From Marchantia polymorpha subsp. ruderalis (lineage: Eukaryota > Streptophyta > Marchantiopsida > Marchantiales > Marchantiaceae), in the NCBI GenBank assembly GCA_037833965.1, contig AP031355.1, positions 19,059,501-19,123,500 of the forward strand: a stretch of 64,000 nucleotides of DNA, given 5' to 3'. The notes under the pieces are model-generated. The model was given only the letters and a program-made list of their open reading frames with translations, searched no databases and was not told the DNA's origin. Position numbers and translations under genes: made by a program. How positions within the stretch are numbered: the first letter of the stretch is position 1; every line of letters starts with the position of its first letter. Below, piece after piece: positions 5,280 through 40,193 of the stretch.

Positions 5280-8200
5280 ACTTATTTTATACGGACTTTC
5301 TAATCAACCTATCAAATTCCATTGAACTAAACTTGATTACCAGAAGATGTTTGTTGATATAACCTACTCAGAAAACTTAATTTAAATCATATCAAAGACT
5401 TGGAGAATCCTTATACAGCTGAATCTTCTTGAGATTCATGCCGATGTACTCTAAGAGGTGTGGAGCAATCAGGCATTTATTTCCATTTTACTCCGCTTTT
5501 CTCACATTTTTAGATTATACACACACATCATCGATGCACACCATAAGTCGGAATTGTGATCAAACTATTAACCTCTCGATTTCTTGGGCTCATACAATAG
5601 TGCCTTCAATCGTCTCCGCAAGAGATCAACAACATTCACGGAAAGTTCGCCTTCGCGATTTACCGCGCACACTTTGGTGATCTTTTCAAAATGATCCATT
5701 GGTACGGTAGTACCTTCTTAGTCTAATTCCTGCAAGTTGAAGTGCTTTGTAACTCGTTCAACAAATTTTGCAACGACCCGCAACGGCCTCACCTCACTCC
5801 TGCTCTTTCCTCCAACTGACTCGCCATCGGCTGTCTATGTTAGAAATCACCGTCGATTGATATTAACACATGCGTGACGTGTGACGTTTCGTATCTGGTA
5901 GTATGATATTCGTTAAATCCCAGTAACTTAGTTGTTTTCCCATCAAGTAAAAATCTCAGAAACAACATAACTGGAAAGTTGGTTGGTTTAAACCTACCAT
6001 CTATGCTATGCAGGCTTCATAGCATAGATGGCAGTGAAAGTCTTCAATGGTGTAAGAGAAGTCGTTGGACATGAAGTTTTGGATAAGATGGTGGTCACTA
6101 CAGGTATCAAATATCCAGCTCCAGTATTTGTTATAGCTGTAGGGTGCGTTCTGGAAGAATCTTGAAGATTATCTTATGTATGGAGAGTATGTCAACGTAG
6201 AAAATCTGTATGAATTTTCTTGGGTTGGATGAGAAAGAAAAAAAACAACGGCCGGATATGCTTGATATGTTTGGAAAAAGTTTAGCTTGATTTGAAGAAC
6301 AATTTTTGCCTTTCTTTCTGAAGAGTAGGGGCCACATTGCTATACCAAAATAAGAGTTTCATTACACCTCCGATCTTGTAGGTCAAGTTCTTTCATTTTC
6401 AAGTTGAGACCGTATTTTCAACTATCGGGATACGGATAATTTCGCATCTCGGTTTAAGATCATTGACCTCAAATTCCAAGGCCGTAGAGAAACACTACAG
6501 ATTGTATGAAGTTTGAGCATTCATCACACAATCGCACTTGGATTATTTAAAATCCACATCTTGAGACTTGAATTGGTTGAAGATTGATGTCGATAGGAGC
6601 CCGAAGATTAAAGTGCAGTATCAGGTAGAGCGTGTTGGATTAACCATGCCTCACCCAAGCGAAAGCTCGTTCAACATATTCTTCTTCCTATCTTTACTTC
6701 TCTGTTTAGGGGAGTGTCAACCAAGAAAAGTGATGTGGAACTAGTAAAAACTTTGAAGGCTTTAGGCAATTGGCAATGAGTTTTTAAAAATTATGTTTGC
6801 ATTCAGTAAATATAATGTTATAATAGACATATAAAAAATATTTTTAAACTTTGTAGCCAAAGGCTCCGGCATTCTAACAACAAAGTTGTGTGAAGGTACC
6901 ATCGTAATATACCTAAATATGTTATGTTTCACAATTGTAAAAATATATAATGTAGTTACATAATAAAATAAATTCTAAAATATCAACAATTCAAACAGCT
7001 TATATATTAAACATTGAGAGTATAGATCATTAGTTACAATTACTAGATTTCTATAGATGGTTTATAGTAAGATGGTTTATATAGATATTTCAAAAACCAA
7101 AGGAGAGTAAAGATGTAAGTCTCAGTATCTATACAATCTCTCGTGAATTGAATTTGCTACAGTAAAACCCTAAACTTAGTATATTTTCAGTATGCTATCC
7201 CGTTAGGATAGAGAATGTATACAAAAATTATTTTCTTGTAGAATCAAATTAACTAGTTGAAATCAAATCACACGGATTACGTGGTATTAACCAAGAATTC
7301 ATTATAATTTTAGTATTAGAATTATCCACTTTTATCTGGAGTAAATTGAAGAATCTTATAAAAATTTGAAGATGATTGCATTACTCAAGAGACACTCAAA
7401 AGCAGTAGTTATTTAAGATTTTTGTAATATCATGTATCAAAATATTGCGCAGCCAATATCATCAAAGATTATATAATGAATAAAGTAAGAAAGAAATCAA
7501 ATACTAAAATTATTTTCTTTTATTTTTTAACAAGTTGGCAAGTGTGGTATATGTCACGTGAAAAATATATCGGCAACAATAAGAAATATTATAAAGCTAT
7601 CGTACAGTGATTAGAATATATTTTCTACATAGTAGACATACATATGTACATGGCCTAAGATATTTTGCTCATCTAGCTTCTAGAGTTGTCCTGTTCAGTG
7701 TCGGTGGAACATCTCCGGGACACACCATTATTTCCAGGTTATGATACACACTTTAAATGCTTATTCATTCGTTTTGAAATTCTACCTACACTATCCTTTG
7801 TACTCAAGTTTACACGGGAGTCATGAAACGATTACTCCTTCACTTGGAAACATTTAAATGTATGTCATACCTCAAATGTGTGTCAACTAACAATTGAACG
7901 AATATGAACACACTTTCAATCTGTACAGATGTACAATGAATCTACAAGAGTGTTCTGAAGTTACGAGGTTGGCTCGTTTATCGGACAGTGGTGTAGGCGT
8001 GGTACAAAGTTGGGTGACAGTGGGTTTATTATTGCTACCGACGTTTCCTCGAGTGGGTTGATGGAGACTGTTGAAACGAGGACAACAATCGACGCAGCAC
8101 AGATATCACAAACCAAACCTTTACTACCATCAACGTGATTTGCATTTCGCCATAGTGAGTTTTGCGCAGGTTTATACCGATCTTACTGGATCAAGCCATT

Positions 8201-15179: not shown

Positions 15180-15470
15180 TGTCATGTAGTTACGAGTCGG
15201 CTCACGCAGTTTAGGCACTTACTATATTTAGACGTGGAAATAGGGTTCGGGTCACGAGGGGTATAGAGTCGGGGACGGCTCGAAGAACGTTAGTTCTTCA
15301 AGTCGAGCCTGGAAGCGTTGGGAGCGTGGAGAGACTTTCCCCTTTCCGTCGACCTAGATTCTCCGAGTGTGGAGTGGGTTGGGCTTGACTCATGTTTGTG
15401 ACGGTGACGGTTTGTTGCCAGTAGGGTAATTGACCGACGGGAATTCCAGTGGCGAATCTCCCGTTTATTT
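15180..15470 (+). repeat. 5' LTR remnant matching the 3' LTR
   Basis: This stretch matches about 36948-37238 over about 290 bp with few differences (starting TGTCATGTA and ending CCCGTTTATTTC). It holds a TATA-like TATATTTA and reads as the R-U5 part of an LTR. The U3 start seen at 36834 is absent here, so the left end looks truncated. Past 15470 the sequence continues beyond the point where the 3' copy stops, so the real LTR end is uncertain. Confidence 0.6.
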
Positions 15471-15828
15471 CACTCGAAGAACTCATTACATCGAATCGGT
15501 CGGTGTTTGTTGTCACGGTTTTGTTCAACGTTGCTTTGAAGTATGAGGGGCATCATTTCTGCTGCTGGCGGATCAATCCTCTGATACCACTCGGGAATCG
15601 AATCTCGCTCGCTTCAGAGAGGAGGGCGCCGTGGAGGCGCACCGGGACGTCTTGCTTGTTGATGCGCGCTGTGGGTCGACCGCGAAATTTTGTCGAGGAG
15701 GAAGGAGCTGCGCGACGCGAGGAGAGAAACGAGAACAAGAGCGAGAAGCGAGGGATTGTGACTTCTGCGAGGAGACCTTCGTCGTTGTTGTCGTCGACGT
15801 CGGTGGTGGTCGCTAGGCTTCGTCGAGC
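15471..15828. other. Leader region of the outer Gypsy element
   Basis: A non-repeated stretch between the LTR remnant and the first solo LTR. It contains GC-rich overlapping ORFs of up to 139 codons on both strands without recognisable motifs. It probably includes the rest of U5, the primer site and the start of the untranslated leader, but no clear plus-strand primer-binding site was found. Confidence 0.35.
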
Positions 15829-24438: not shown

Positions 24439-25259
24439 TGTAAGACCGGGTGTTGCACATATGTACTAAGTCTTAGAAGTGGTCAAGGGAATAAGGATGA
24501 TTAGCCAAGGCATAGCTAAGACTAGCTAGTTATGACTAAACTAGTTAGTTATAACTAAGTTTATCTAGTCATGACTAAGTTTAGCTACAATGTTTATAGT
24601 TGGCGGAATAATTAGCGGAGTTCTAGAAGAATGGAGTGAGCACTTATATTTTGTCTTTTACAAGGAGTGAGCACTTCTATTTTGTCTTATACAAAAGTTC
24701 TAGATTCCAAGTGATTAGATATTTGACTAGAAGCTTGGATTTGATTGGTTTGACTAAATGTATGAAAGATGATTGGCTAGACTAAGTCTAATGTTGACTT
24801 AGTGGCTAGGAAGCTTGTAGAAGTTTAAAAGCTTCAAATGGCATGTCGCCACCTCAACCTTGGATTCCGGAAGCTTCTAGAAGGTTTAGGTAGGCCAATG
24901 GCATGTTGCCACGTAGAGAAGGTTAGTCAAACTTACCTAGGTAAAAGTAAGTTAGGAGAAATTACCACATGTTACTATGGGAACTTCTCAAGTAGTATAA
25001 ATAGAGAGGTAGAGTAGCACCTCTCAAGCAAGTTTGGAGAGTTCATATGTAGAGACTTGTTTCATATATGAAAGAGTGACGAATTTTCAGTACCTTGGAA
25101 TGTCGATGAGTGTATGAGTTGGAGTGATACCTTGAGAGATTGTGTGAGAGGGTGTTTAGCTTATGAGTATGATGCGGAATCCTAGTCTTCTAGAATCATG
25201 ATGAGCTACCGAAAAGCCATCTGAGGTAAACCTGAGTGAGAGTCAGCCCGAAGGTTGCA
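24439..25259 (+). repeat. 3' LTR, mosaic: S1 U3 joined to S2 R-U5
   Basis: Up to about 25017 it follows the S1 family (starts TGTAAGACCGGGTGTTGCAC, like 15829-16687 and 31587-32445). After the shared stretch CTCTCAAGCAAGTTTGGAGA it follows the S2 family of its own 5' LTR almost base for base. The TATAAATA box is at 24996-25003, so the switch falls about 20-40 bases downstream, near the expected U3/R border. Confidence 0.85.
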
Positions 25260-25687
25260 GGCCAGTGCAGCACAAGTTGAGGCATCAGTTGCAGTGACCA
25301 GAGGTGGTGCTCGCACTCCAGAGCCACGTGGTGCGACTGTGGAGTTGGACCCTCAGAGGGGTGAGCGTGGACGTCAGTCTAGACTTCCCCAGTCCTTTTT
25401 GTTGTCAGAGGTGGGTAGAAGTTCATCTATGAGACCTGCACCGCCTAGTGACACTAGAGTGAGAACTGAGGTTTTTACATCATCTGTTATGGACGCAGAC
25501 GTGCCATCTAGTGCAGCGATGCGGATGGCCACTTTAGTCTTGCAATCTCCATTGTTTTCAGCCACGGAGTTGATAGACTCTGGTATTGATTTGGCTCGAG
25601 TATTTTGGGTAGCAGCCACGTCGTGTGAGCGTGGGAGAGTCGTTGCTACGAGTGCCGAGATACGTGAGAATACAGTTGATGACCCAT
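25260..25687 (+). pseudogene. Outer Gypsy gag-like segment between two insertions
   Basis: An open frame of about 140 codons of Arg-, Ser-, Glu- and Val-rich sequence (TRGGARTPEPRG; later LFSATELIDSGIDLARVFWV). It ends only because the TG...CA unit begins at 25688. The frame continues after that unit at 30567 as LPHPSSTSTLFEETIW, leading into the protease. I see no zinc knuckle or capsid motif, so gag identity rests on position. Confidence 0.5.
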
Positions 25688-26640
25688 TGTAATAACCCAT
25701 CAAAGGCTAAAACTGCAGTATGGTGGTAAAAAGATCGAACCCACAGGGACAGAGGCAACACACAGAGTAAAAGTGTCACGTTTAACAGACTTTTGTAGAG
25801 TTTGAATTCTAGGCGACAATCACTCCCAGAAATACTGCAGTGCTCGACTCGGAGGCTCGACTCGGAGGAGGATCTCGACTCGGAGGATGCTCGGAGGATG
25901 CACGGTACAGCGTGATCACTCAACACACACACACACCTGAAAACTGGCAAAAGCACAACTCGGAGGTCGGTCAGGACCTCCGCTTCGGATTTCAGGGGGA
26001 AAGTGTCTCAAAAGTTCACTCAGAGGTTCTGCAGGTAGTGCCTCCCACTCCGGCTTTTACTGCCCTTCCGCCAGGAACTAGCGTAGGGTACCCGGACTGG
26101 ACTTCCCACTTCGGAACGAAGCCTCTTCATACGCCGTGGACGTCACCCTCGACTCTCACACCAAACGCAGGGAATGCAGACCCGACTGAGAACTTAACTG
26201 AGACACGATCCAGTAACACACACACAACCTGAATTGCAAACCAAGGCTTACACGAAGTAATAAAACTTCACTTTGGCATTCAGGGGAAACATCCCGTAGG
26301 AGTACAATCAGGATATGTCACTCGAAGGAGTAAGGGGGAATTGTTCAAGTATCTAACTCGCAGCCGGCTCTGAGCATCAGAAATCACCCGCAGGTGCAGA
26401 TCCGCACTACTCAAGTCTCTAACCGGGTACTAGCTCTGAACATTCAGCCGAAGGCCTTCAACTACAACATACGGTAACTTCGCTATGCTGCAGCTTCTCT
26501 ACGTGGCGCAAGGACCAAAATGCACAAACACGCCAAGAAAGTGAGTTCCTGATCTGCACTTCCGAAACTGGAAGAGTCCCAAGGCAAAACGCCTTGATCT
26601 ACTTTATACCCTCAAAGGTCCTAACTAACACTACACTATC

Positions 26641-29202
26641 CTATCTACTACTCGCAGCATCTGCGCGAAACCAAACTATTCTACTGCACTCGGCTGATCC
26701 GGTGCTGCGCCTCCTGCGCGCCGGACTGCTCCGCTCGCTGTCTCTACCTTGCCAGTCTTCCGACCGGCTGCGCAACCCCAGGCGTCGGAGCGCTGCAGTG
26801 ACTTCCGACTCTAAGTGCGCCATAGTGTCGCGCGCACCCGACAAGAAGGTTTCTAATTTCCTCGCCACTCGCCGCCGACTCCGACTGTCACCCTCCGTCA
26901 ATGCCGCCGCCCGAAGCTCGAACTCCCTGAGTGTGATCTTCTCTTGAGCTGCCACCTCCCAATGGGCGTATCCTTTTAGACAATGGGTCACCCGTGTCGC
27001 CAACTCTCCTCGCGCCCTGCAGCTGCTTTCCACCTCTGCTAGCTGCATTTCCGCTTCCGCACGTTGTGCCCTCAAATCCGAGCACTCGGATTGCAAGTTG
27101 CGCAACAACTCCTCATCCTCCTTGCGGGCTCTTTGACTTTCTTCTAAGGCGCGCGTCTCGCGCGCAAGCTCGGCTGCTAGGACGTGGTTTTGTCTCCGCT
27201 CTTCCTGCAATTCCGACTCGATCTTTGCCCGCATTAGCTCGGCATCCGCCTGACTTTTCGTCGCCGCATCCTCCCTCTGCTGCTGCAAGGCTTGGTATAG
27301 CTTCTGTGTGACCGCCAGGTGTTGTCGGAGGGCGGTGTTCCTATCCACATAAACTTGGCACCTAGAGGCCCACCTTGCCACCTTGCTCCTCGTCCTTCGC
27401 CTGATAGTCTCCACATAAGACTGCGGTTTTCCAGTACCCGCGTACTTGGATGTCTTGCGATCCAGATATCGCAGGAGTGGAACTATCTGTTCGCACAACA
27501 CCCCTGTTGGCGTTTTCTGCACCGAATCCGCTTCCTGCTCTTCCGAGCTCGTCTCATCCTCAGTCTCGAGGATTTCAGTCGCCACCGAATCCCTTGGCGA
27601 CTCCTTGGAACTGTGGCGCGCAGCAGCTTCCGCTGCGACTGCTGCTCCACTGCCTGCTAAAATATCCAGGGCAGTGGGAGATCTCACTGCTTGAGCCCCT
27701 GTTCCGGCTCGATCTTCGGTCTCCGAAGGGGTCGACGCCGCAGTGACTCTTGTCACTTTTGCACCGCCCGCTTCTGCTGCCTGCCCTTCCGGCGCAATCT
27801 GCGCGGAAGGTGTCTTCGCTGAAGGTGCGTCCGCCGAAGGCGTCCGCACACTGGTCGCCGGCCCTGTCCATCTCGTAGTCGGCGAATCCGGCCGACTCTC
27901 TGTTGTCCGACTCGCAGTCGGCCGACCAGCAGTTGTCCGACTGGGAGTCGGATACACCCTGCGCGTCTTGACTCCACTTGGCCTGCTTGCTGGTGGCGTT
28001 TTCCCAGAAGTGCCTTCCGCCGAAGACGACCCTATGAGGGTTGTTGGCTCGTCAGCCAAACTCTCTTCTGCTTCCGGCCTGCTGTCCGGTTCAACGCGCC
28101 GTTCAGTTGGCCTTCCTTCCGCTTGTCGGCCTTCAGTCGCCCGACTCGTAGTCGGCCGACTGTCAGTCCGTCCATCTCCTCCCGAAGGCATTGGGGCCTT
28201 CTGTGCAGAGGTATTTGTCGTCTTCCCTAGAATCTGCGCAATTATCTCCTCTTGTGTGAGATTCCGCCGGATCGGAGTACGCCCGGTCTCCTCAGTACCA
28301 GTTGGCATTTTGCGTGCCCTCTGTTTTGGTCGACTGTGAGGCTCGGGGTTGGACCGACCACGAGTCGGCGCAGCTGGCACTTCCGGCTGCTTGTCCTCAG
28401 GTCTCTCATCCCACTTCCGTTTTCGCGGAATGCGCTCACTTCGACGTTCTTCTGCTGCTCTTGCTGGAGCCGGAGCCGGAGCCGGAGGCGGACTGGCAGG
28501 TTCCTCGTCCGGATCCGTGTCTACTTCGGCCTCCCTCGAGTATCTACCTGGATAGCTCCGGGTCAGCTGCGGAAACCGTGTTTTCTCAGAATTTGTCAAA
28601 CATCCCATCGCCCGATAAAACACGATCAAGTAAGGCGATAGATGATTGAGGGTTCCTCCTTTCTCTTCTTGCGCATGTTGGCGCGTCACCTTCCACAGGA
28701 GCCGTGCCCAATGCACTGGAGCTCCTGACAACACTAGCTCCACAAATTCTACCTGCCAACCATGCATGTAAGCGGTCTTGGTCGGCTGCAATATTTGCAG
28801 CAATGCAGTCGCGACATTTCTCCGCAATCGATCTTTGTAATCCCGTGTCCGGAAACCGTTCTTGGGATGCCTGGCAACTTTGAAGAGCTCATTGTAGGAG
28901 ATTTCTTCCTCCTGGGACACCTTCACGCTATCGGCCTCGAAGAGGAGATCCCCTTCCTCGCCGGCACACCTGCCCAACACCTGCGCCCAGTTACAAATGT
29001 CCCATCTTTCTGGATGTGGACGGAATCCGCGAGAGGGCTTCTGTCTCTCCTGCAGATACTCGCGCACCATCTCCGGACATGTCCAGTTCCACCCCCACAG
29101 GAGAAAATCGAGCTTCAGCCCCAGCAGCACATCTTGAAATGCGCGTAGACCGATCTGCGGCACCCTGAGTGGAGACACTCGCAGCTGGGGAACCTTCGAC
29201 AT
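26641..29202 (-). CDS. 853-residue element protein: conserved N-domain, Pro/Ser/Thr-rich middle, C-terminal coiled coil
   Basis: I start at the ATG at 29202 (MSKVPQLRV); the frame is open 96 codons further upstream without an ATG. Residues about 30-240 form a conserved domain containing FLLWGWNW, ICNWAQVLGRCAGEEGD, a LLQILQPTKTAYMHGW segment and WARLLWKVTRQH. The same motifs occur, broken by stops, in the copy at 54.7-55.2 kb. Residues about 250-560 are rich in Pro, Ser, Thr, Arg and Glu with repeats such as SRTT and GRP. A second conserved block (VLCEQIVPLLRYLDRK, KYAGTG) near 567 opens a long Glu/Arg/Ala-rich coiled coil to about 830. No enzyme motif is visible. A Gag-like or structural role is possible; from memory this family is abundant in Marchantia. 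Function unknown. Confidence 0.75.
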   Translation of the reverse strand: MSKVPQLRVSPLRVPQIGLRAFQDVLLGLKLDFLLWGWNWTCPEMVREYLQERQKPSRGFRPHPERWDICNWAQVLGRCAGEEGDLLFEADSVKVSQEEEISYNELFKVARHPKNGFRTRDYKDRLRRNVATALLQILQPTKTAYMHGWQVEFVELVLSGAPVHWARLLWKVTRQHAQEEKGGTLNHLSPYLIVFYRAMGCLTNSEKTRFPQLTRSYPGRYSREAEVDTDPDEEPASPPPAPAPAPARAAEERRSERIPRKRKWDERPEDKQPEVPAAPTRGRSNPEPHSRPKQRARKMPTGTEETGRTPIRRNLTQEEIIAQILGKTTNTSAQKAPMPSGGDGRTDSRPTTSRATEGRQAEGRPTERRVEPDSRPEAEESLADEPTTLIGSSSAEGTSGKTPPASRPSGVKTRRVYPTPSRTTAGRPTASRTTESRPDSPTTRWTGPATSVRTPSADAPSAKTPSAQIAPEGQAAEAGGAKVTRVTAASTPSETEDRAGTGAQAVRSPTALDILAGSGAAVAAEAAARHSSKESPRDSVATEILETEDETSSEEQEADSVQKTPTGVLCEQIVPLLRYLDRKTSKYAGTGKPQSYVETIRRRTRSKVARWASRCQVYVDRNTALRQHLAVTQKLYQALQQQREDAATKSQADAELMRAKIESELQEERRQNHVLAAELARETRALEESQRARKEDEELLRNLQSECSDLRAQRAEAEMQLAEVESSCRARGELATRVTHCLKGYAHWEVAAQEKITLREFELRAAALTEGDSRSRRRVARKLETFLSGARDTMAHLESEVTAALRRLGLRSRSEDWQGRDSERSSPARRRRSTGSAECSRIVWFRADAASSR

Positions 29203-29490
29203 TGCGTTTCCTGCACACACAAACGTTCTCCCTTTCGCTCGCTCTCTCACAATCGCCACTGCGCGTCGGTCGCTCAAGCACTGACTGCTCACTCTCTCTT
29301 CGCTCACGCTCAAGTTCGCTACTCGCAATTCTCTCCAAGGCCTGTCAAGATCCTCGCGCAACTCGTCTCCGCACTCTCTCCTCTCACTGCAGGTCTCTCC
29401 GCCCTTGCGCGTAATCTTGGAAACTGGAAATCGCAAAATCAAGAATGTGAGAATGAGACTGGAGCGCAGTCTTTTCTTCTCCGAATTCAA

Positions 29491-30560
29491 GAACGTCCAA
29501 CGTTCTTACTGGTTACAACGTACGCAGCCGGCTATACGGCCTAACGGTTCGCCCTTTGCATGCGGGAATTCACGTCTCCGCACTGCGCGCATTCGCATGC
29601 GTGAATGTTGAATTCTCCCGCCGCCGCCACCTTCCGGACTCGAGTCCGCCGCAGGGTATACGTCGGCTATGTTGTCTTTTCCTAACCCGTCCATCACCGG
29701 AGGCGTGTCGCCGCTGGTGCGTTCCTTATCCGTCGGCGCCTTGCTGGAGGCGCACATCTAGTCGGAGCGAATTACGCCGGCGCGCAGTCGTACCGCTTAT
29801 TTTGTCCTTTATGCCTCGTCCATTGCTGACGGCGCATATCCGCCAGCGCAACTCATGCCAGCGCATCCGGCCGTCAGCGCCACGTCGGAGGCGTACATCC
29901 GACCGGCGCTTTCCTTCCATGAACAGCCGCCAAAGGCGCTTCCGACTCTGAGTTGGTTTCCTCCTATGAGCGCGCGATCCCGCCGAAGGCGCATCGCCGA
30001 GGGCGTACGGGAATCCTTTCCGGCTGTGAAACCTAGCGCGAACGGCGCATGTCCGGCTACGAGTTTTCCGACGCTCATAACTTCTCCGTCCCTGATCCAT
30101 CTCCGACGCTCTTGGGCTCGTTAGAACGAGCGTCCCGAGCTCTTTCTAATGTGACTTCATCCAACTGGATCTACCGTGTATTCCGATCGTTATGAAGGTT
30201 TTCCCCTTCCGCGCCAGCGGCGCATCGCCGAAGGCGCACTCATGGTCGGACGCCTTCAGAGGTCCGGGCCCTTCTCCTGACGTCTTTAGCAAAACCTCCT
30301 CCTGAGGTGTCTGTGCCGGAAGCGTAGCTTCCTTATACGCTGGAAGCGCGTGAGTAGAGACACCTCAGAAAAGGAGCTTTTGCCTAAGGCGCCGAAGACA
30401 TTGGCGTTGGTACATCCGACTACGTGATTCTTCGTGACCTCGTGACGATTTCATCAATCCACTCTATTTATCGTACCCTTTTCTAACTACAAACACTGCT
30501 TCGGTACTAGTTTTCTATAATTGTTTAAATTCTGCAAAAAAACAAAAAGTGTGTTACCAC
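29491..30560 (-). other. 5' leader of the TG...CA unit
   Basis: GC-rich non-coding sequence with many scattered imperfect copies of a GCCGAAGGCGC-like, partly palindromic word between about 29.7 and 30.4 kb, then an AT-rich stretch down to the TGTGG terminus. The many short ORFs on both strands follow from the composition. It would contain the promoter of the 853-residue gene; no convincing TATA box was chosen. Confidence 0.5.
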
Positions 30561-30566
30561 ACCCAT

Positions 30567-31048
30567 CCTCAACGTCTACATTGTTCGAGGAGACAATTTG
30601 GCAGGCCGCAGCGGCGAGGATGGAGTCCTTACCAGCTCGCCCAGCCATTGATCGCGAGAGTATTGTTCCTGGTGTATGCATGGTGGACAACCGAAGTGGT
30701 CTATTTTGGTTTGTGAGTTCTATTAGACAGGTGTATGTCCCAGCCAGAGTTTTGTTGGATTCTGGTGCACAGCCCTTGATGTTGGGCAAGGCTGCATGCA
30801 TTAGTTTGGGCATTCGGAGGTTAGAGTTAGAACCTTGCCCATTCCAGATCCAGACATCTCTTGGTGGCGCCAGCGATAGGTCTTACTTTATGACCAGGGA
30901 GAGCATAGCGGTGCAGTTGAGGCATGATCACCTTCATGATAGCTCGCAGTTTGGAGTTCGTGCTGTGGTTACATCAGCAGAGTCATATGATGTGCTTGTT
31001 GGTGGAGTGGTGTTATACCCAATGGGCTTTCGGATGGACTATTGGACG
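30567..31048 (+). pseudogene. Aspartic protease region of the outer Gypsy element
   Basis: Open frame to the TAG at 31049-31051. The retropepsin signature ARVLLDSGAQPLMLG has its DSG at 30758-30766, and the second half ends near ESYDVLVGGVVLYPMGF, as in Gypsy proteases. The same frame continues after the TAG into the methyltransferase (31052 onward), so the stop most likely replaced a sense codon; CAG is the simplest precursor. Confidence 0.7.
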
Positions 31049-31051
31049 TAG

Positions 31052-31586
31052 ACTGCCGCATATCGTCCTGGTTGGCAGTCCGGAGATGGACGTCTGAGCG
31101 AGCTGCCAGTGAGATTTATTTCTCGGGATCGACCTCTTGGATCTTCATCAGCGGTCTTGGCATCGTTTGCGAGTTTTAGCGGAGTGCTTACCTGGCCCGA
31201 TGACTTGTTGGAGGGGAACATGTCTGCCGACGATACCTCACTCTACGAGGATGTGGAGGAGGTTGTGAGTTTCACAACGGCGGTGACTTCACCCTTAGAT
31301 GTTCCACTGTGGAGTTCGTGCCAGGCACTACAGTTGGAGGCTGATAGGTTGTTGAAAAAGGCTTGGAGTGAAGCCTCTTTATCAGCAGAGCCAGAGAGGG
31401 CTTCAGCTGATTGGCTAGTTAGCGCATTGTCTCCATTGGGTACTACACCTATTGCATGGGAGTATTCCTCAAAGGGCGTTTGTTTGCTGGATCTTTTTGG
31501 TGGGATCAGCACAGGTTTGGCTGCGTTGTTGCAGTCAGGTATTCTCGTACGGAGATACTTGTATGTGGAGAAGGACGAGACTGCAC
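31052..31586 (+). pseudogene. Methyltransferase part 1 (linker and SAM-binding motif I)
   Basis: An acidic linker (to about 31450) is followed by KGVCLLDLFGGISTGLAAL; motif I (DLFGG-S-TG) lies at 31487-31516. It matches the SAM-binding loop of C5 DNA methyltransferases, and the next residues (YLYVEKDETA) match the motif II region of Dnmt3-type enzymes. The frame is cut after GCAC (31583-31586) by the solo LTR and continues in the same codon at 32450. Confidence 0.85.
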
Positions 31587-32445
31587 TGCAACCTCCGGGC
31601 TGACTCTCACTCAGGTTTACCTCTGATGGCTTTGTGGTAGCGCATCATGGTTCTAGAAGACTAGGATTCATACTCTCACTCATGTCCCAAACACCTTCTC
31701 TCACAAACTCTCATGTATCACTCCAACTCACACACAAACTCTCCTCACATCACCCTCTTCACATAAACACAAACACACGTCGATACTCCAAGATACTCAA
31801 AAACTTCACTCCTTCATTACTGAAACAAGTACTCACACATAACTCTCCAAACTTGCTTGAGAGGTGCTACTCTACCTCTCTATTTATACTACTTGAGAAG
31901 TTACCATAGTAACATGTGGTAATTTCTCCTAACTTACTTTTACCTAGGTAAGTTTGACTAACCTTCTCTACGTGGCAACATGCCATTGGCCTACCTAAAC
32001 CTTCTAGAAGCTTCCGGAATCCAAGGTTGAGGTGGCGACATGCCATTTGAAGCTTTTAAACTTCTACAAGCTTCCTAGCCACTAAGTCAACATTAGACTT
32101 AGTCTAGCCAATCATCTTTCATACATTTAGTCAAACCAATCAAATCCAAGCTTCTAGTCAAATATCTAATCACTTGGAATCTAGAACTTTTGTATAAGAC
32201 AAAATAGAAGTGCTCACTCCTTGTAAAAGACAAAATATAAGTGCTCACTCCATTCTTCTAGAACTCCGCTAATTATTCCGCCAACTATAAACATTGTAGC
32301 TAAACTTAGTCATGACTAGATAAACTTAGTTATAACTAACTAGTTTAGTCATAACTAGCTAGTCTTAGCTATGCCTTGGCTAATCATCCTTATTCCCTTG
32401 ACCACTTCTAAGACTTAGTACATATGTGCAACACCCGGTCTTACA
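31587..32445 (-). repeat. Solo LTR of the Gypsy S1 family inside the methyltransferase
   Basis: 859 bp, nearly identical to 15829-16687, with target duplication GCAC (31583-31586 and 32446-32449). Its excision in silico restores the methyltransferase frame exactly. It is therefore younger than the host copy. The two solo LTRs differ at only a few positions, so both insertions are recent. Confidence 0.95.
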
Positions 32446-32449
32446 GCAC

Positions 32450-33222
32450 GTCGAGTCTCTTCACGACATGTTGCACAGTTGATGCGGCGTTTTCCTTCGT
32501 TATTGCCGCGATCAGCTGTCCGAGGATTCCAGAAGGCGTTGCCTTTAGACATTTTGTTGCTGGGGGCGCCAGACCTTGACCGCGTTGGCCATATTGATAT
32601 GGTGATTGCGGGCTGGCCATGTTAGGGACACACACGCGATGGACATGGGACAGGGTTGCATGATCCCAGATCTCGGATGTTTTGGGAGATGATGCGAGTG
32701 TTACGTCATCTCCAAGTGCAGTAGACACGTTCTCCAGCATACATTCTGGAGAACGTACCATTGTTGGGTGACACTCGGGTCCAGTTGATGGCGAGTGTCC
32801 ATCAAGTCCGAGCATGGATTGGATCAGCAGTACTGTTGGATGTTGCGAAGGTTGAATCACGGGCTCATCGTGCACTTTTATGGTGGACCAACCTTTTGCC
32901 ACGTGAGATATTGCGTGATGCCTATGATTCTGTGCAGCGTGATCCTACACTCACCGTTAACAGTATCTTGGATATTTTCCGACACTCTCAGGTAGTGAGA
33001 GTTGATGACAGGTCACCTATGGCGAAGGTGAACCGCGTAGGTCAGCCTCGGATGGCTTTACCTACATTTGTCAGTTATCCGGCATCACATGCATATCGTG
33101 ATGGTGGACCTGGACTACTGTGGGACAATACAGTACATCAGTTGGTGGTGCCCAACGCTGATGAGAGAGAGCGTGCGATGGGATTTATGAGTGGTGTCAC
33201 CGCAGCTGCTACAGTTTCATAG
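32450..33222 (+). pseudogene. Methyltransferase part 2 (Dnmt3-like catalytic core)
   Basis: In one frame: MVIAGWPC (motif IV, catalytic Cys at 32620-32622), then TAG at 32623-32625 where these enzymes have Gln (PCQ), then GTGLHDPRS; a second TAG at 32722-32724; LENV (motif VI) at 32746-32757; ESRAHRALLWWTNLLP (motif VIII, like the AAHRARYFWGN of Dnmt3) near 32855-32900; and ERERAMGF (motif IX/X region) near 33168-33189. Motifs come in canonical order I-IV-VI-VIII-X, unlike the rearranged plant DRM enzymes. The core without the LTR is about 290 residues, the normal size of a Dnmt3 catalytic domain. C5 methyltransferases transfer a methyl group from SAM to cytosine. The two internal stops make this copy inactive. 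Retrotransposon-borne cytosine methyltransferases have been reported in dinoflagellates and a charophyte alga (from memory, de Mendoza and colleagues 2018). Confidence 0.88.
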
Positions 33223-33537
33223 GCTTCGCGTCGTCAGGTTTTGGGTCAAGCTATGGACTTGAACTGCTTGACGTGGATTGTGAGCTTGAGTTTGGCGGAG
33301 CAACGCCGTTTGCGCGTTGATTTGGTGGTTAGTACACCACTTGTTAGCTCATTGCCACCCGAGATGGTAGAGGCAATGGCTGGGGGCGACAGGCAAGGTA
33401 TTCATCATCCTTGGAGTTTATGGGACGTGACGAAAGGACTTGCTAGAGTTGCAGCCCATGCAGTTGGAGAGGATTCTCATGTGGAGGTGGCTACGAAGGA
33501 GAGTACGGAGAACCCTTCTTTGCAATGTGTAGCGTAG
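33223..33537 (+). pseudogene. Linker between methyltransferase and reverse transcriptase
   Basis: Same frame as the methyltransferase, between TAG 33220-33222 and TAG 33535-33537. No domain recognised. It contains ITWIVSLSLAEQ-like helical sequence and may be the spacer cleaved by the element protease. Confidence 0.5.
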
Positions 33538-34860
33538 CAACCATTGACAGTGTCGCCTCCCTCTAGTGTGCCTATGGAGGAGGAATGGGAGCCATTGATT
33601 GGTTCCCAGATCACAGGAGGAGAGAGTCAACGATTGACACAATTCCTACGAGACTATATGAGTTGTTTTGCTTTCAGTATGAAGGAGTTGGGTGCGTTGA
33701 TTGGACCCGCTATACGGATAGAATTGGCTAGTGATACGCCAATCTTCCGTCGTCCTTATCGATACAGTGAGATGGAGAGAGATTTGATTCGGAGTAGGAC
33801 GTTGGACCTATTGGAGGCTGGACTAGTGGAGTTATTGCATGGTGAGTATGCGTCAGCCACTGTCATGCCGGTGAAGAAAAATGTACATGGCAACCACACG
33901 GATAGGCGCATGTGTGGAGACTACTGTCTTATCAATTGGCAGACGAAGTCCGATAAGTATGCCATGCCTACATCTGAGGAGATCTTCGATGTGGTGGGAC
34001 ATGCGAGGATTTTTAGTACTTTGGATCTTCGGGTAGGATACCATCAGTTGCCAATTCGGGAGGAGGACAAAACCAAGACAGCGTTTTGGGGCGTCAACTC
34101 CCACGGCAAGGATTGTTTGTATCAATGGCGATTCTTACCCTTTGGGTTGAAGAATGCACCTGCCGAGTTTCAGAGGGTTATGGACAGAATCTTGGCGGAG
34201 TTGGATTTTGTAAGATGTTACATTGATGATATCTTGGTGTTTAGTAACACTGTGGAGCAACACCAGATACACTTGCAGATTGTGTTTGAGCGATTGAGGG
34301 CTCATGGTTTGAGGTTACATCCTGGGAAGTGTAAGTTCTTCTAGGAGAAGGTTGAGTACTTGGGTCATGTGATATACCCAAGTGGATTAGGAGTTCAGCA
34401 AGCAAAGATGGAGGCTATTGCACGCATCCCTCGTCCCACGGATGTGAGTAGAGTTCGTGCATTCATGGGTTTGGCGAACTACTACCGGAGGTATGTGAAG
34501 GGGTTCAGTGCTATAGCCAAGCCTTTGAACCAGTTGCTGAAGGCGGATCAGGAGTGGCAATGGGGAGATGAGCAGGAGAGAGCTTTTGTTGAGCTCAAGG
34601 CCAGGTTGGTGGCCGCTCCCATCTTGAGGAGACCTATCAGAGGTCGCCCATACTAGTTGCACACTGATTGGAGTATGTTGGGACTTGGAGCGGTGTTGAC
34701 GCAGCGTGATGATGAGGGCAAGGAGTTTGTGGTTGCGTACGCTAGTCGTTCGAACAATGCAGCGGAGTCGCGGTATAGTTCGTACAAGGGAGAGTGCTTG
34801 GCAGCGGTGTGGGCTGTGGCACACTTCAGGTGTTACTTGTTTGGTACGCAGTTCGATGCT
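33538..34860 (+). pseudogene. Reverse transcriptase and start of RNase H, outer Gypsy
   Basis: RT signatures: FRRPYRYSEMER, VMPVKKN, MCGDYCLIN (usual form has Arg where Cys stands), STLDLRVGYHQLPI, FLPFGLKNAPAEFQRVMD and CYIDDILVF with the catalytic YIDD at 34219-34230. A TAG at 34342-34344 sits in KCKFF-EKVEYLGH, where Gypsy enzymes commonly carry Gln. Thumb and connection follow (RAFMGLANYYRRYVKGF). RNase H begins after a TAG at 34654-34656 with LHTDWS. A frameshift near 34856-34875 moves the frame by one. RT active-site residues are otherwise intact. Confidence 0.9.
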
Positions 34861-36266
34861 TCGGTATTGATCACCTTGTTACTGATCATCAACCGCTCAA
34901 GTGGTTGATGGAGTCCGACAAGCTTACAGGGAAGCTTGCACGGTGGGCTCTCATCTTACAGGAGTACGACTTTCAGGTAGTGCATAGACCTGGAGTTGCG
35001 TACCTAGATGCCGATGGTCTGAGTCGAAACCCATGCACTAGCCAGGAGAATGACACTGGAGCTAGATGGCATGGTGAGGTTGACGAGGAGATGGTGCCTG
35101 GTTGGCATGCATCTGCCTTCATGTGTTGGTTGCGTGGGAACTCCAGCAGAGAGGATCATCTGACATCTTACTCTAGTCAGAGAATAGATGGTCGATCCTC
35201 AGATCCTGAGGTTGAGGATGGTGGTGTGGATTAGCGTGATGTTCACGATGATGCATTGGTGTTGGAGTTCCTACGGACCAGCATGGTGCCAGGCACAGTG
35301 GATGCCAAGGAGCGAGATCGTGTTCTCCAACGGACCAAGAGGCACCGATTGGAGGGATCACATGTTCTACGAGTGTGGGAGGACGGTAGGGTACGAGTAC
35401 TACTACATCCAGCCCAGAGAGCACGCATTGTGAGGCATGCTCATGAGGAGTTGGGACATTTTGGAGTGAAGCGTACATACACCTTACTCCTTGGTCAGTA
35501 TTGGTGGCGTGGTATGCATACTCAGGTACAGCAGTTGGTATCACGTTGCATGGTTTGTGATCGAGTGAGGGCATCATTCAATGCCACGACATCAATGTTA
35601 CATCCATTACCCATCATGGGGTTGGGTTACCGTTGGAGTTTGGACTTTGCTGGACCACTACCTTTGACTGTACGACATCATTGGTATGTGTTGGTGATGG
35701 TGGAGCATTTCTCCAAGTGGATTGAGTTGGTGGCATTACCTGACAAGGCAAGTGAGGGAGTAGTGTATGCTTTCCTTGACAGAGTGCTTAGTCACTATGG
35801 TGCACCAGCTGAGGTGTTGACCAATCAGGGAACAGAGTTTCAGGTCTTGTGCGACAAGGCACTGATTGATCATCGGACCACGTCGCGAGATCATCTAGAG
35901 GCGGATGGTTTAGCTAAACGTGTTGTACAGACGGTGAAGAGGGCATTGCGCAAGTATGGCCTGCAGAAAGGTCATCTTGGGGACTGGGATATCCAGTTAC
36001 CGTGGTTGGCCATGGAATATCGGTTCAATCGGCATGCATCCTTGGCTTCCTTCTCACCATATTTTCTATTGTACGGCCGAGATCCAGACTTGCCAACATC
36101 GATTCGTCGTGAGTCTAGCGAGGTGGTGAACCTTGATGACCCAAATATGTGGGTGAGAGTATGTTCTCAGCGTGCACAGCTCTTTCGGAGAGTTATGCCT
36201 GCAGTGTTTGAGAATCTTGCGATTGCTCAACATAGAGATACGTTGCGGTATGCAACCATTCGGGGA
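34861..36266 (+). pseudogene. RNase H end and integrase, outer Gypsy
   Basis: VTDHQPLKWL ends RNase H; DADGLSRNP marks its border. After a TAG at 35232-35234 come the HHCC zinc finger (HAHEELGHFGVKRTY to CMVCDRV, about 35430-35570) and the catalytic core. The first Asp is present in WSLDFAGPL (35643-35645). The second reads LTNQGTEF, Asn (AAT, 35823-35825) for Asp. The third reads GLAKRVVQTVK, Lys (AAA, 35916-35918) for Glu. The integrase is thus doubly dead. Both changes fit G-to-A, that is C-to-T on the other strand, in CG and CHG contexts. The frame ends in TGA at 36267-36269. Confidence 0.88.
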
Positions 36267-36269
36267 TGA

Positions 36270-36677
36270 GGTTATCGACCATCAATTCGTAGATTCCATG
36301 TGGGAGACTACGTCTATCTACAGCAGACTGCACCGACGACATTGGATGTGACGGCGGGACGCACAATCTTGCGAGTGCGGGAGGTGTTACCTTCTGGAGT
36401 TCTCCTGTTGGAGGGTCGTGACGGCGTTGTTTTGAAGGATCATGTGCGCAATTGTGCGCCATGTCACCTCCCAAACGTAGATGGCATTATGGACCCAAGC
36501 TTAGTGATAGTATGTGCTGGCTTGAGGTGCATGTTGTGTGGGTCAGCTGGTCAGGTGGCCCGTATGTTGGTGTGTGATAGGTGTTCTAGGGGATGGCACA
36601 TGTTGTGCCTGACTTTGCCTATCTATGTTATTCCGGCTGGACGATGGGTTTGTCCTCGATGTACTTCAGAGGGGTAG
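36270..36677 (+). pseudogene. Integrase C-terminus with PHD finger
   Basis: The frame continues after TGA 36267-36269 (a CGA codon is the simplest precursor). HVGDYVYLQQ and LRVREVLPSGVLLLEGRDG form the SH3-like tail usual after Gypsy integrases. Then a complete C4HC3 PHD finger lies at 36528-36662: CMLC, VCDRC, WHMLC and WVCPRC with the typical Trp before the last Cys pair. PHD fingers read histone H3 tails. Many Gypsy elements carry a chromodomain at this place for targeted insertion; here a PHD finger takes that position. All eight zinc ligands are intact. Confidence 0.9.
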
Positions 36678-36833
36678 ATGACTTGATCTTCACATGTTAT
36701 GAATTGCAGATAGGCGACTAATGATGGGGCGACATAGCACCCGGTATTTATAGTACCCGGTGTATAGCATGTAGTTGTAGATAGAACTACCTGGGAGTCA
36801 GAGGGACCTGACCGCCAACTAGGGGGCGAGTTG

Positions 36834-37268
36834 TGACATTTGAGTGTGTACTCTCTCGCGCCTTATATGTGTGTATGTGTGCGTATGTGTATGTGAGTAG
36901 CATGTCAGCGATGTAGAGTGTATGGCGATATGTATTCGCACGACAGCTGTCATGTAATTACGAGTCGGCTCACGCAGTTTAGGCACTTACTATATTTAGA
37001 CGTGGAAATAGGGTTCGGGTCACGAGGGGTATAGAGTCGGGGACGGCTCGAAGAACGTTAGTTCTTCGAGTCGAGCCTGGAAGCGTTGGGAGCTTGGAGA
37101 GACTTTCCCCTTTGCGTCGACCTAGATTCTCCGAGTGTGGAGTGGGTTGGGCTTGACTCATGTTTGTGTCGGTGACGGTTTGTTGCCAGTAGGGTAATTG
37201 ACCGACGGGAATTCCAGTGGGGAATCTCCCGTTTATTTCGATGTATGGCGATATGTATTCGCACGACA
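36834..37268 (+). repeat. 3' LTR of the outer Gypsy, right end rearranged
   Basis: It starts TGTGACATTTG directly after the purine-rich tract ACTAGGGGGCGAGT. 36948-37238 equals the 15180-15470 remnant. After CGTTTATTTC the remnant at 15470 continues with a different sequence, but here a 27-bp copy of 36920-36946 follows (37242-37268, core GGCGATATGTATTCGCACGA). The end is therefore probably a repair junction with templated filler and not the natural LTR end. Confidence 0.65.
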
Positions 37269-40113: not shown

Positions 40114-40193
40114 TGAAGACACATTTAGTTAATCATCACTCCCGTACTTCAGATCTGAAGTACGGGAGTGATGATTAACTAAATGTGTCTTCA
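40114..40193. repeat. Perfect 80-bp palindrome without spacer
   Basis: Arms of 40 bp meet at 40153/40154 (AGA|TCT) and are exactly complementary. The matching place in copy B (about 46438-46495) has only one arm (TCTGAAGTACGGGAGTGAT...), so the inverted copy was gained in copy A or lost in B. Confidence 0.9.

Follow-up and report, generated by a model that had tools for sequence, protein, structure and literature searches.

A Dnmt3-like methyltransferase and split-repeat termini in a Gypsy-type retrotransposon family of Marchantia polymorpha

Results

The window, a 64,000-nucleotide stretch of Marchantia polymorpha subsp. ruderalis DNA (C6:19059501-19123500 of the 241-Mb, nine-contig assembly that we searched), holds a defective, nested copy of a retrotransposon family that this liverwort carries in high copy number, and in which a C5 methyltransferase resembling Dnmt3 is encoded within a Gypsy-type element. 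The window copy is 95.9% identical to an intact sibling, E1, over 6227 aligned bases, and its surviving pieces relative to E1 lie at 25260-25687, 30561-31586, and 32443-37239, with a 27-base end piece at 37242-37268. The features are listed below (ORF, open reading frame; LTR, long terminal repeat; RT, reverse transcriptase; A and B, the parts of the terminal repeat).

25260..25687, plus strand: detached ORF1 fragment from the stretch between Gag and protease; 95.6% match to E1 positions 5971-6398, insertions on both sides
25688..30560, no strand: 4.9-kb insertion splitting the element; gap between contiguous E1 matches
30561..31586, plus strand: ORF1 continued, protease-like region and methyltransferase start; 95.5% match to E1
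about 30710-31177, plus strand: protease-like region with DSGA; best Pfam protease E 0.054, below cut-off; mapping
about 31442-33312, plus strand: whole methyltransferase; mapped from intact sibling
about 31478-31504, plus strand: methyltransferase motif I; mapped from intact sibling
31587..32445, plus strand: solo LTR from a different element, interrupting the methyltransferase; no E1 match between flanking E1 matches
32446..33312, plus strand: methyltransferase remainder, broken by in-frame stops; mapping
about 32614-32625, plus strand: catalytic PCQ loop; mapped from intact sibling
about 32749-32760, plus strand: ENV motif; mapped from intact sibling
about 32860-32892, plus strand: motif VIII; mapped from intact sibling
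up to about 33312, plus strand: motif X; mapped from intact sibling
33535..33537, plus strand: conserved TAG followed by CAACCA, ORF1/ORF2 boundary; same in intact copies
33538..36668, plus strand: ORF2, broken in the window copy; Pfam and mapping
about 33715-34407, plus strand: RT; Pfam RVT_1 1.1e-28
about 34555-34964, plus strand: RNase H; Pfam RT_RNaseH 9.6e-8
about 35409-36122, plus strand: integrase zinc finger and core; Pfam H2C2 3.4e-16, rve 1.8e-9
about 36528-36662, plus strand: PHD finger behind the integrase; Pfam PHD 5.7e-10
36829..37268, plus strand: 3' terminus; matches to E1, E2, and E7 termini
36829-36945, plus strand: B1, in the 3' terminus
between B1 and A2, plus strand: gc spacer within GACAGCTGTC, in the 3' terminus
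36948-37239, plus strand: A2, in the 3' terminus
37240-37268, plus strand: B2, shortened, in the 3' terminus

The original prediction, made from the window sequence alone, had placed a Dnmt3-like methyltransferase at 31470..33200 within a Gypsy polyprotein, and the order of methyltransferase motifs, RT, RNase H, and integrase that it gave holds in the window, where the RVT_1 profile matched as listed. The methyltransferase itself maps slightly wider, with motif X lying beyond 33200, and the element does not start at 30567, since a further piece lies on the other side of the 4.9-kb insertion. An upstream protease is suggested by the DSGA motif and by weak Pfam matches, all of them below the cut-off. 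As had been proposed, the solo LTR is a later insertion, with E1 matches on both flanks and none within, and the copy is dead, broken by insertions and in-frame stops, one of which stands directly behind the catalytic cysteine codon (32623-32625). The parts before and after the LTR differ in frame, and the single reading frame envisaged for the window exists only in intact copies. A Pfam search of three window methyltransferase pieces for PF00145 gave no match, even at an E value of 10; identification of the enzyme rests on intact siblings and homologues.

Such intact relatives, whose existence had been anticipated, were found by searching the genome with the piece at 32725-33219. It returned 459 candidates. 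All of the 150 that were scored proved to match, at 82-92% for every place except the window copy. Frames of at least 1348 amino acids without a noted stop were seen by eye at 26 of the 150 places, and ten intact copies (E1 to E10) were fetched from these. All ten carry an ORF1 of 1355-1365 amino acids, TAG CAACCA, and an ORF2 of 1042-1045 amino acids in one frame. ORF1 encodes Gag, a weak protease match, and the C5 methyltransferase, and ORF2 encodes RT, RNase H, integrase, and the PHD finger. PF00145 was over the cut-off in both ORF1 frames scanned (E 1.5e-9 and 6.6e-9), Gag in the same two frames was below it (E 0.014 and 0.0089), and the protease was weak or unlisted; two CCHC-like knuckles in ORF1 were recognized by eye. 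The one ORF2 scanned, in two pieces, gave RT, RNase H, H2C2, rve, and PHD over the cut-off. The coding order of RT, RNase H, and integrase, with H2C2 and rve, is of Gypsy type; among the scanned ORFs no tyrosine recombinase was listed, rve being found instead, and no chromodomain was listed behind the integrase, where the PHD finger takes its place. Five tested methyltransferase motifs, YIDD, and the PHD pattern are kept in all ten copies. The intact siblings thus support a Dnmt3-like methyltransferase within a Gypsy-type element of a liverwort. None of them joins protease directly to RT, and the presence of the domain in all ten rules out a host-gene insertion at the window site only.

When the methyltransferase domain was searched against PDB sequences, DNMT3A was best (1.9e-10) and the first 29 of 53 rows were DNMT3A, DNMT3B, or DNMT3C, followed by HaeIII (1.8e-4), DNMT2 (1.3e-3), and DRM (1.6e-3). 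An AlphaFold2 model from 35 sequences reached a predicted local distance difference test score (pLDDT) of 94.3 and a predicted template modeling (pTM) score of 0.93, and all 50 matches listed for it by Foldseek were DNMT3 entries, with template modeling (TM) scores normalized to the target of up to 0.84. By sequence and predicted fold, the element enzyme looks Dnmt3-like, with PCQ in the catalytic loop compared with PCN in DNMT3A. A homologue, P0003, is 68% identical over 99% of the piece at 32725-33219 and matches PF00145 at 1.3e-7. Codon comparison indicates that the methyltransferase is under purifying selection: between subfamilies (E1 and E8), the ratio of nonsynonymous to synonymous divergence (dN/dS) was 0.11 for the methyltransferase, 0.11 for Gag, 0.16 for the protease region, 0.06 for RT, 0.06 for integrase, and 0.05 for the integrase end with the PHD finger, with 0.20 in the spacer before the methyltransferase and 0.83 in the 74-residue tail behind it.

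The 28 element enzymes of a 61-row tree all fell in one group, though at a bootstrap of only 54, and host plant DNMT3 formed a clade at 99. On average, the element enzymes shared 26% identity with host plant DNMT3, no more than the 27% that they shared with 18 prokaryote-type rows, and 29.5% with a DNMT3A fragment; host DNMT3 was 40% identical to DNMT3A and 38.5% identical to the prokaryote-type rows. The low identity to host DNMT3 argues that the element did not capture its enzyme from the host gene recently. A Pfam search of the genome gave 123 scored places over the cut-off, of 290 candidates. One locus on C6 (L051) is MpDNMT3b of M. polymorpha subsp. ruderalis (P0181, 100% over 93%), another (L052) has by eye the rearranged motif order of a DRM, and C3:19066770 also matches the start of the Pfam methyltransferase profile.

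The original prediction had joined methyltransferase and RT in one uninterrupted polyprotein; instead, a conserved UAG separates them, and the stop at 33535-33537 is a family feature rather than damage. Among 30 loci examined, one had no match and one did not cover the site; TAGCAACCA occurs in 25 of the other 28, the window copy included, and of the remaining three copies, two also fit CARYYA and the third has no stop. The sequence UAG CAACCA fits the tobamovirus-type context of UAG plus CARYYA. In tobacco mosaic virus (TMV), CAR YYA after UAG has been reported to be essential for readthrough, and the TMV context gave a reported 32% readthrough in a plant assay (PMC2754532). By analogy, we infer that the UAG is leaky and is read through. 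Its position between methyltransferase and RT would place the enzyme on the abundant Gag-side product and RT and integrase on the rare one.

Self-comparison ruled out conventional LTRs, with A1 at the 5' end against B-gc-A-B at the 3' end. The repeats are split: A1, measuring 254-292 bp as far as the primer-like site, precedes the coding region, which is followed by B1 (about 119 bp), gc, A2, and B2. The element ends are TGTC...GACA, and the inner junction, GACAGCTGTC, is a perfect palindrome. The A...BAB arrangement is exact in six of the ten fetched copies; E5 is A...B, E4 has an extra partial repeat, and no 5' end was found in E6 and E10. Beside E6 (C2:20745130-20761129, L041 and L042) lie a second copy in head-to-tail orientation and a near-identical, inverted stretch of 3.8 kb, possibly a trace of multimers or recombination. 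Flanking DNA is duplicated over exactly 4 bp in all eight copies with both ends found by motif; duplication lengths of 3, 5, and 6 fail in all eight, and 4-bp matches at other offsets were found in 7 of 848 cases. DIRS and tyrosine-recombinase elements are not known to produce a target-site duplication. A1 and A2 differ by 0-2 mismatches in five of six copies measured, suggesting recent insertions within the family.

A conserved G-rich tract lies ahead of B1, in the window copy immediately 5' of it. The 18-base B-gc-A junction occurs at 161 genome places and a 17-base tract motif at 192, with reversed controls at 0; among the 100 places listed for each, contig C1 (the only contig compared, by eye) has 14 tract sites, of which 10 have the junction behind them. 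Directly after A1, 11-13 nucleotides are complementary to a stretch inside A1 in eight of eight copies. A tRNA-type primer was rejected, as the 12-mer behind A1 does not begin with TGG and is complementary to A1 itself (no tRNA comparison was made). If primer site and tract are right, the complementary DNA (cDNA) would have ordinary B+A repeats at both ends, and the integrated form would then be permuted; a two-repeat circle cut at the palindrome would give exactly A...BAB. In foamy virus, integrase is reported to cleave a palindromic junction between two LTRs directly behind CA on each strand (PMC1180852).

The 5' leaders differ although the ORFs are near-identical within a subfamily. Among seven leaders compared, approximately 0.33-0.42 kb before ORF1 is common to all pairs with matches over it, E1 and E4 share about 1.1 kb, E3 and E7 share about 0.9 kb, and the remainder is unalike. 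The leaders of E1, E2, E3, E7, E8, and E9 were searched in the genome, and 11 junctions of split matches were tested. Part of the E1 leader aligns at 97-100% with six blocks of C8:424060-426298. With borders sought within 4 bases, each of the five gaps between the blocks proved to be an intron, canonically bordered on the antisense strand; read in that orientation, the stretch has a frame with a Sec63 domain (E 6.6e-35). Two further pieces of the same leader each lack one intron, an antisense piece from C8:10533111-10533746 and a sense piece from C2:16619631-16620284 (90-95%), and the E7 leader contains a sense piece from C4 from which a 537-bp intron is missing. In the E3 leader, one of two junctions has a canonical border, at 78-86% identity, and the single border tested in the E2 leader is not canonical. 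Overall, borders were canonical at 9 of the 11 junctions tested, with spliced pieces in three of the six searched leaders; a spliced origin was rejected at the other two junctions, one in E3 and one in E2. Other matches are a 1.3-kb block of the E8 leader, 99% identical to C9:6906466-6907778, and a 0.5-kb block of the E9 leader, 97% identical to C6:22957310-22957825. The E1 leader recurs, whole or largely, at three other places, indicating that the cargo has been copied on. The likely route is template switching onto host mRNA, which leaves the antisense orientation unexplained. Leaders that differ in this way and hold spliced host pieces, some of them antisense, are those at L031:592-4727 and in the copies at L033, L035, and L044.

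Of 238 candidates in a first protein search, 147 were homologues; the organisms named among the 120 listed were Sphagnum troendelagicum, Calypogeia fissa, Marchantia paleacea, and M. polymorpha. A second search, with ORF1 and the methyltransferase region, gave 60 homologues among 6944 candidates, including 15 from M. polymorpha and one each from Sphagnum fallax, Klebsormidium nitens, Cymbomonas, and Monoraphidium. From these protein sequences, the element kind is present in liverworts and Sphagnum. No homologue was named as a host DNMT3 in a search that required shared words and a length window, and in viral contigs (IMG/VR) eight stretches matched a pattern, none of which was confirmed.

Two architectures were seen among the 60 proteins. 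The methyltransferase stands ahead of RT in 15; in 7 with RT upstream it lies between RT/RNase H and integrase, and in 6 more the integrase follows the methyltransferase and RT was not seen. Members of the second architecture (P0159-P0164, P0166, P0168, P0170, P0171, P0173, P0175, and P0178) include those from Cymbomonas and Monoraphidium. Twelve second-architecture enzymes form a clade at 98 in the methyltransferase tree; in the RT tree, which held relatives only, the group with the order RT, RNase H, methyltransferase, and integrase has a support of just 0.08, and in the integrase tree the two architectures are intermixed. These trees do not demonstrate joint inheritance of the methyltransferase with RT and integrase since its capture. 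Twenty proteins (P0130, P0137-P0154, and P0169) end 70-165 residues past the methyltransferase, consistent with a widely shared stop or with contig ends. Precomputed annotations include a PHD finger in 11 of the 60 relatives and aspartyl-protease domains in P0141, P0146, and P0153.

Other features of the window concern its insertions and surroundings. Inside the 4.9-kb insertion, a 954-amino-acid minus-strand frame (26641-29505) runs through GC-rich DNA; a Pfam scan of it gave nothing over the cut-off, the best being SKG6 at a sub-cut-off E of 0.0028. Two 605-base LTR stretches, at 24439-25043 and 31841-32445, are inverted and 100% identical, pointing to two recent insertions of one family or to one rearrangement. 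An A1-like piece at 15180-15485, with a primer-like site behind it, is 92-94% identical to siblings and may represent the 5' end of either the window copy or a different one; its 4-bp flank agrees with the 3' flank of the window copy at only three of four bases. A perfect 40-base inverted repeat without a spacer lies at 40114-40193.

Discussion

The identity, architecture, selection, and termini of this family are well supported. As an account of its life cycle, we propose a Gypsy-type element whose Gag-linked Dnmt3-class enzyme modifies the element's own cDNA and whose circular form is integrated by a cut at GACAGCTGTC, a reading that we consider to have an even chance of being correct. Most ribosomes would halt at the UAG, such that the enzyme would be made at Gag dose and would enter the particle with Gag, and a minority would read through, making RT and integrase. 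The element RNA would prime itself, in which case transcripts would start at AGTTCTTCGAGT in A1, and reverse transcription would yield a conventional repeat (B+gc+A) at each cDNA end. This cDNA would close into a two-repeat circle, which integrase would cut at the internal palindrome after each CA, with loss of GC and insertion as A...BAB. The particle-borne methyltransferase would modify the new cDNA or circle, which would arrive methylated; methylation would most likely protect the cDNA or let it pass as host DNA. The original prediction had suggested that the element may methylate DNA, perhaps its own copies, to escape or tune host silencing. The PHD finger may steer integration by reading histone tails.

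Several observations weigh against this proposal. We infer the methylation target, readthrough, self-priming, and circle route from sequence, and the ten fetched copies were chosen for their long frames. Within one subfamily (E1 and E3), dN/dS of the methyltransferase was 0.19, based on few changes. In E8, A1 and A2 are unequal in length and just 93% alike, indicating that not every intact copy is young. The A1 stretch complementary to the primer-like site also sits in a hairpin, and the complementary site could belong to this A hairpin rather than to a primer. The A...B form of E5 and the extra repeat of E4 could derive from recombination between repeats, and integration may proceed from linear permuted cDNA. 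Finally, P0172 of Klebsormidium and several other relatives run from methyltransferase to RT without a stop, and hence the Gag-side position is not universal.

Different explanations can be offered for the enzyme and for the termini. The methyltransferase may act on chromosomes, either integrated copies or the host genome, as self-repression that limits host harm or in competition with host silencing. Retrotransposon DNMTs have been reported to methylate CG de novo (PMC5890265), and the predicted fold is that of a de novo methyltransferase; nevertheless, the putatively leaky stop leaves the enzyme on the Gag side, as part of the particle protein, and we consider a chromosomal target unlikely. 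Still less probable is a DNMT2-like enzyme that methylates element RNA or tRNA: De Mendoza et al. consider that the LINE enzymes might act on RNA (PMC5890265), whereas similarity to DNMT2 is far weaker here than similarity to DNMT3 (1.3e-3 versus 1.9e-10). That the methyltransferase is a noncatalytic passenger, or a host-gene insertion in the window copy only, would agree with the absence of Pfam matches from the window pieces. This idea is highly improbable given that the motifs occur in all ten fetched copies, that dN/dS is 0.11, and that host MpDNMT3b and a DRM are separate loci, and its host-insertion form is already refuted for the fetched copies.

Turning to the termini, the split repeats could arise during reverse transcription, by template switching to linear permuted cDNA or in a DIRS-like manner, without an integrase cut of a circle. 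DIRS-type elements are reported to have A-coding-B-A-B ends (PMC5890265), and recombination or variation of the repeats is evident in E4, E5, and E6. On the other hand, no tyrosine recombinase was listed in the scanned ORFs, and the 4-bp duplications together with the 2-bp spacer in the palindrome fit integrase processing after CA. We therefore regard termini made by reverse transcription as a serious though rather doubtful alternative to integrase cutting of a circle.

The closest published system is KnitGypsy-Dnmt3 of Klebsormidium nitens; its enzyme, P0172, shows 43% identity across 74% of the query. De Mendoza et al. (2018) reported a Dnmt3 in the Pol ORF of this Gypsy element, acquired independently and accompanied by DIRS-like repeats (PMC5890265). 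Both systems have a Dnmt3-class methyltransferase in a Gypsy-type polyprotein; the DIRS repeat arrangement and purifying selection reported there correspond to the A-coding-B-A-B termini and purifying selection found in Marchantia. The Marchantia family differs in the conserved, putatively leaky stop that parts methyltransferase from RT, in a PHD finger (unlisted for P0172), and in its land-plant host and high copy number; self-priming, target duplications, and captured transcripts are unmentioned or not seen in the excerpted KnitGypsy-Dnmt3 report. Given the TAG conserved in all ten copies, the Marchantia family is a variant of KnitGypsy-Dnmt3 rather than a member of it. SymbioDIRS-Dnmt3 of Symbiodinium likewise has Dnmt3 in a Pol polyprotein with A-coding-B-A-B repeats, and alternative domain orders are reported for it (PMC5890265), as we found among Marchantia-family relatives; it is described as a tyrosine-recombinase element, whereas the Marchantia family has a DDE-type integrase and 4-bp duplications.

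Individual features recall other systems. The candidate self-priming site right behind the 5' repeat resembles that of the Tf1/Sushi and Tcn1 chromoviruses (PMC6317226), from which the Marchantia family differs in having no listed chromodomain, split termini, and a methyltransferase. The UAG followed by CAR YYA is shared with tobamovirus readthrough (PMC2754532), but in Marchantia it parts Gag-methyltransferase from RT. Foamy virus two-LTR circles are reported to have a palindromic junction that is cut after CA with two bases lost (PMC1180852), as in the route proposed here, except that the Marchantia palindrome lies inside the repeat and the inserted DNA would hence be permuted.

Gene-transducing LTR elements such as maize Bs1 carry pieces of spliced host mRNA within a retrotransposon. 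In Marchantia, by comparison, the elements have intact ORFs and the pieces lie in their 5' leaders; one leader can hold several host genes, and the pieces differ among copies.

DNA-methyltransferase retrotransposons were previously known from dinoflagellates and a charophyte, and the land-plant family appears to be new as far as searched. A 2025 survey, as excerpted, states that such DNMT3 had been reported in streptophytes and dinoflagellates. The available portion of the main text of PMC5890265 mentions neither moss, Marchantia, Physcomitrella, PHD, nor readthrough. In a plant DNMT3 paper (PMC6453930), Marchantia appears once, in the references, and element-encoded enzymes are absent; the excerpted text of a plant LTR survey (PMC6317226) mentions neither Marchantia, Klebsormidium, PHD, nor methyltransferase. 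No land-plant report of this element family was recognized in the open-licence literature searched, supplements aside.

Marchantia is the main liverwort model, with a sequenced genome and methylomes. A high-copy family with intact genes and recent insertions in this organism makes what a transposon gains from methylating DNA directly testable. The permuted integrated form offers an opening on integrase biology, as do the captured host transcripts on gene transduction. More tentatively, the family may belong to a bryophyte and charophyte lineage that combines a Gag-dose methyltransferase, methylation of its own cDNA, integration at a circle palindrome, and repeated pickup of spliced host mRNA in the 5' leader. 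If true, land plants would harbor a particle system that both methylates DNA and transduces genes.

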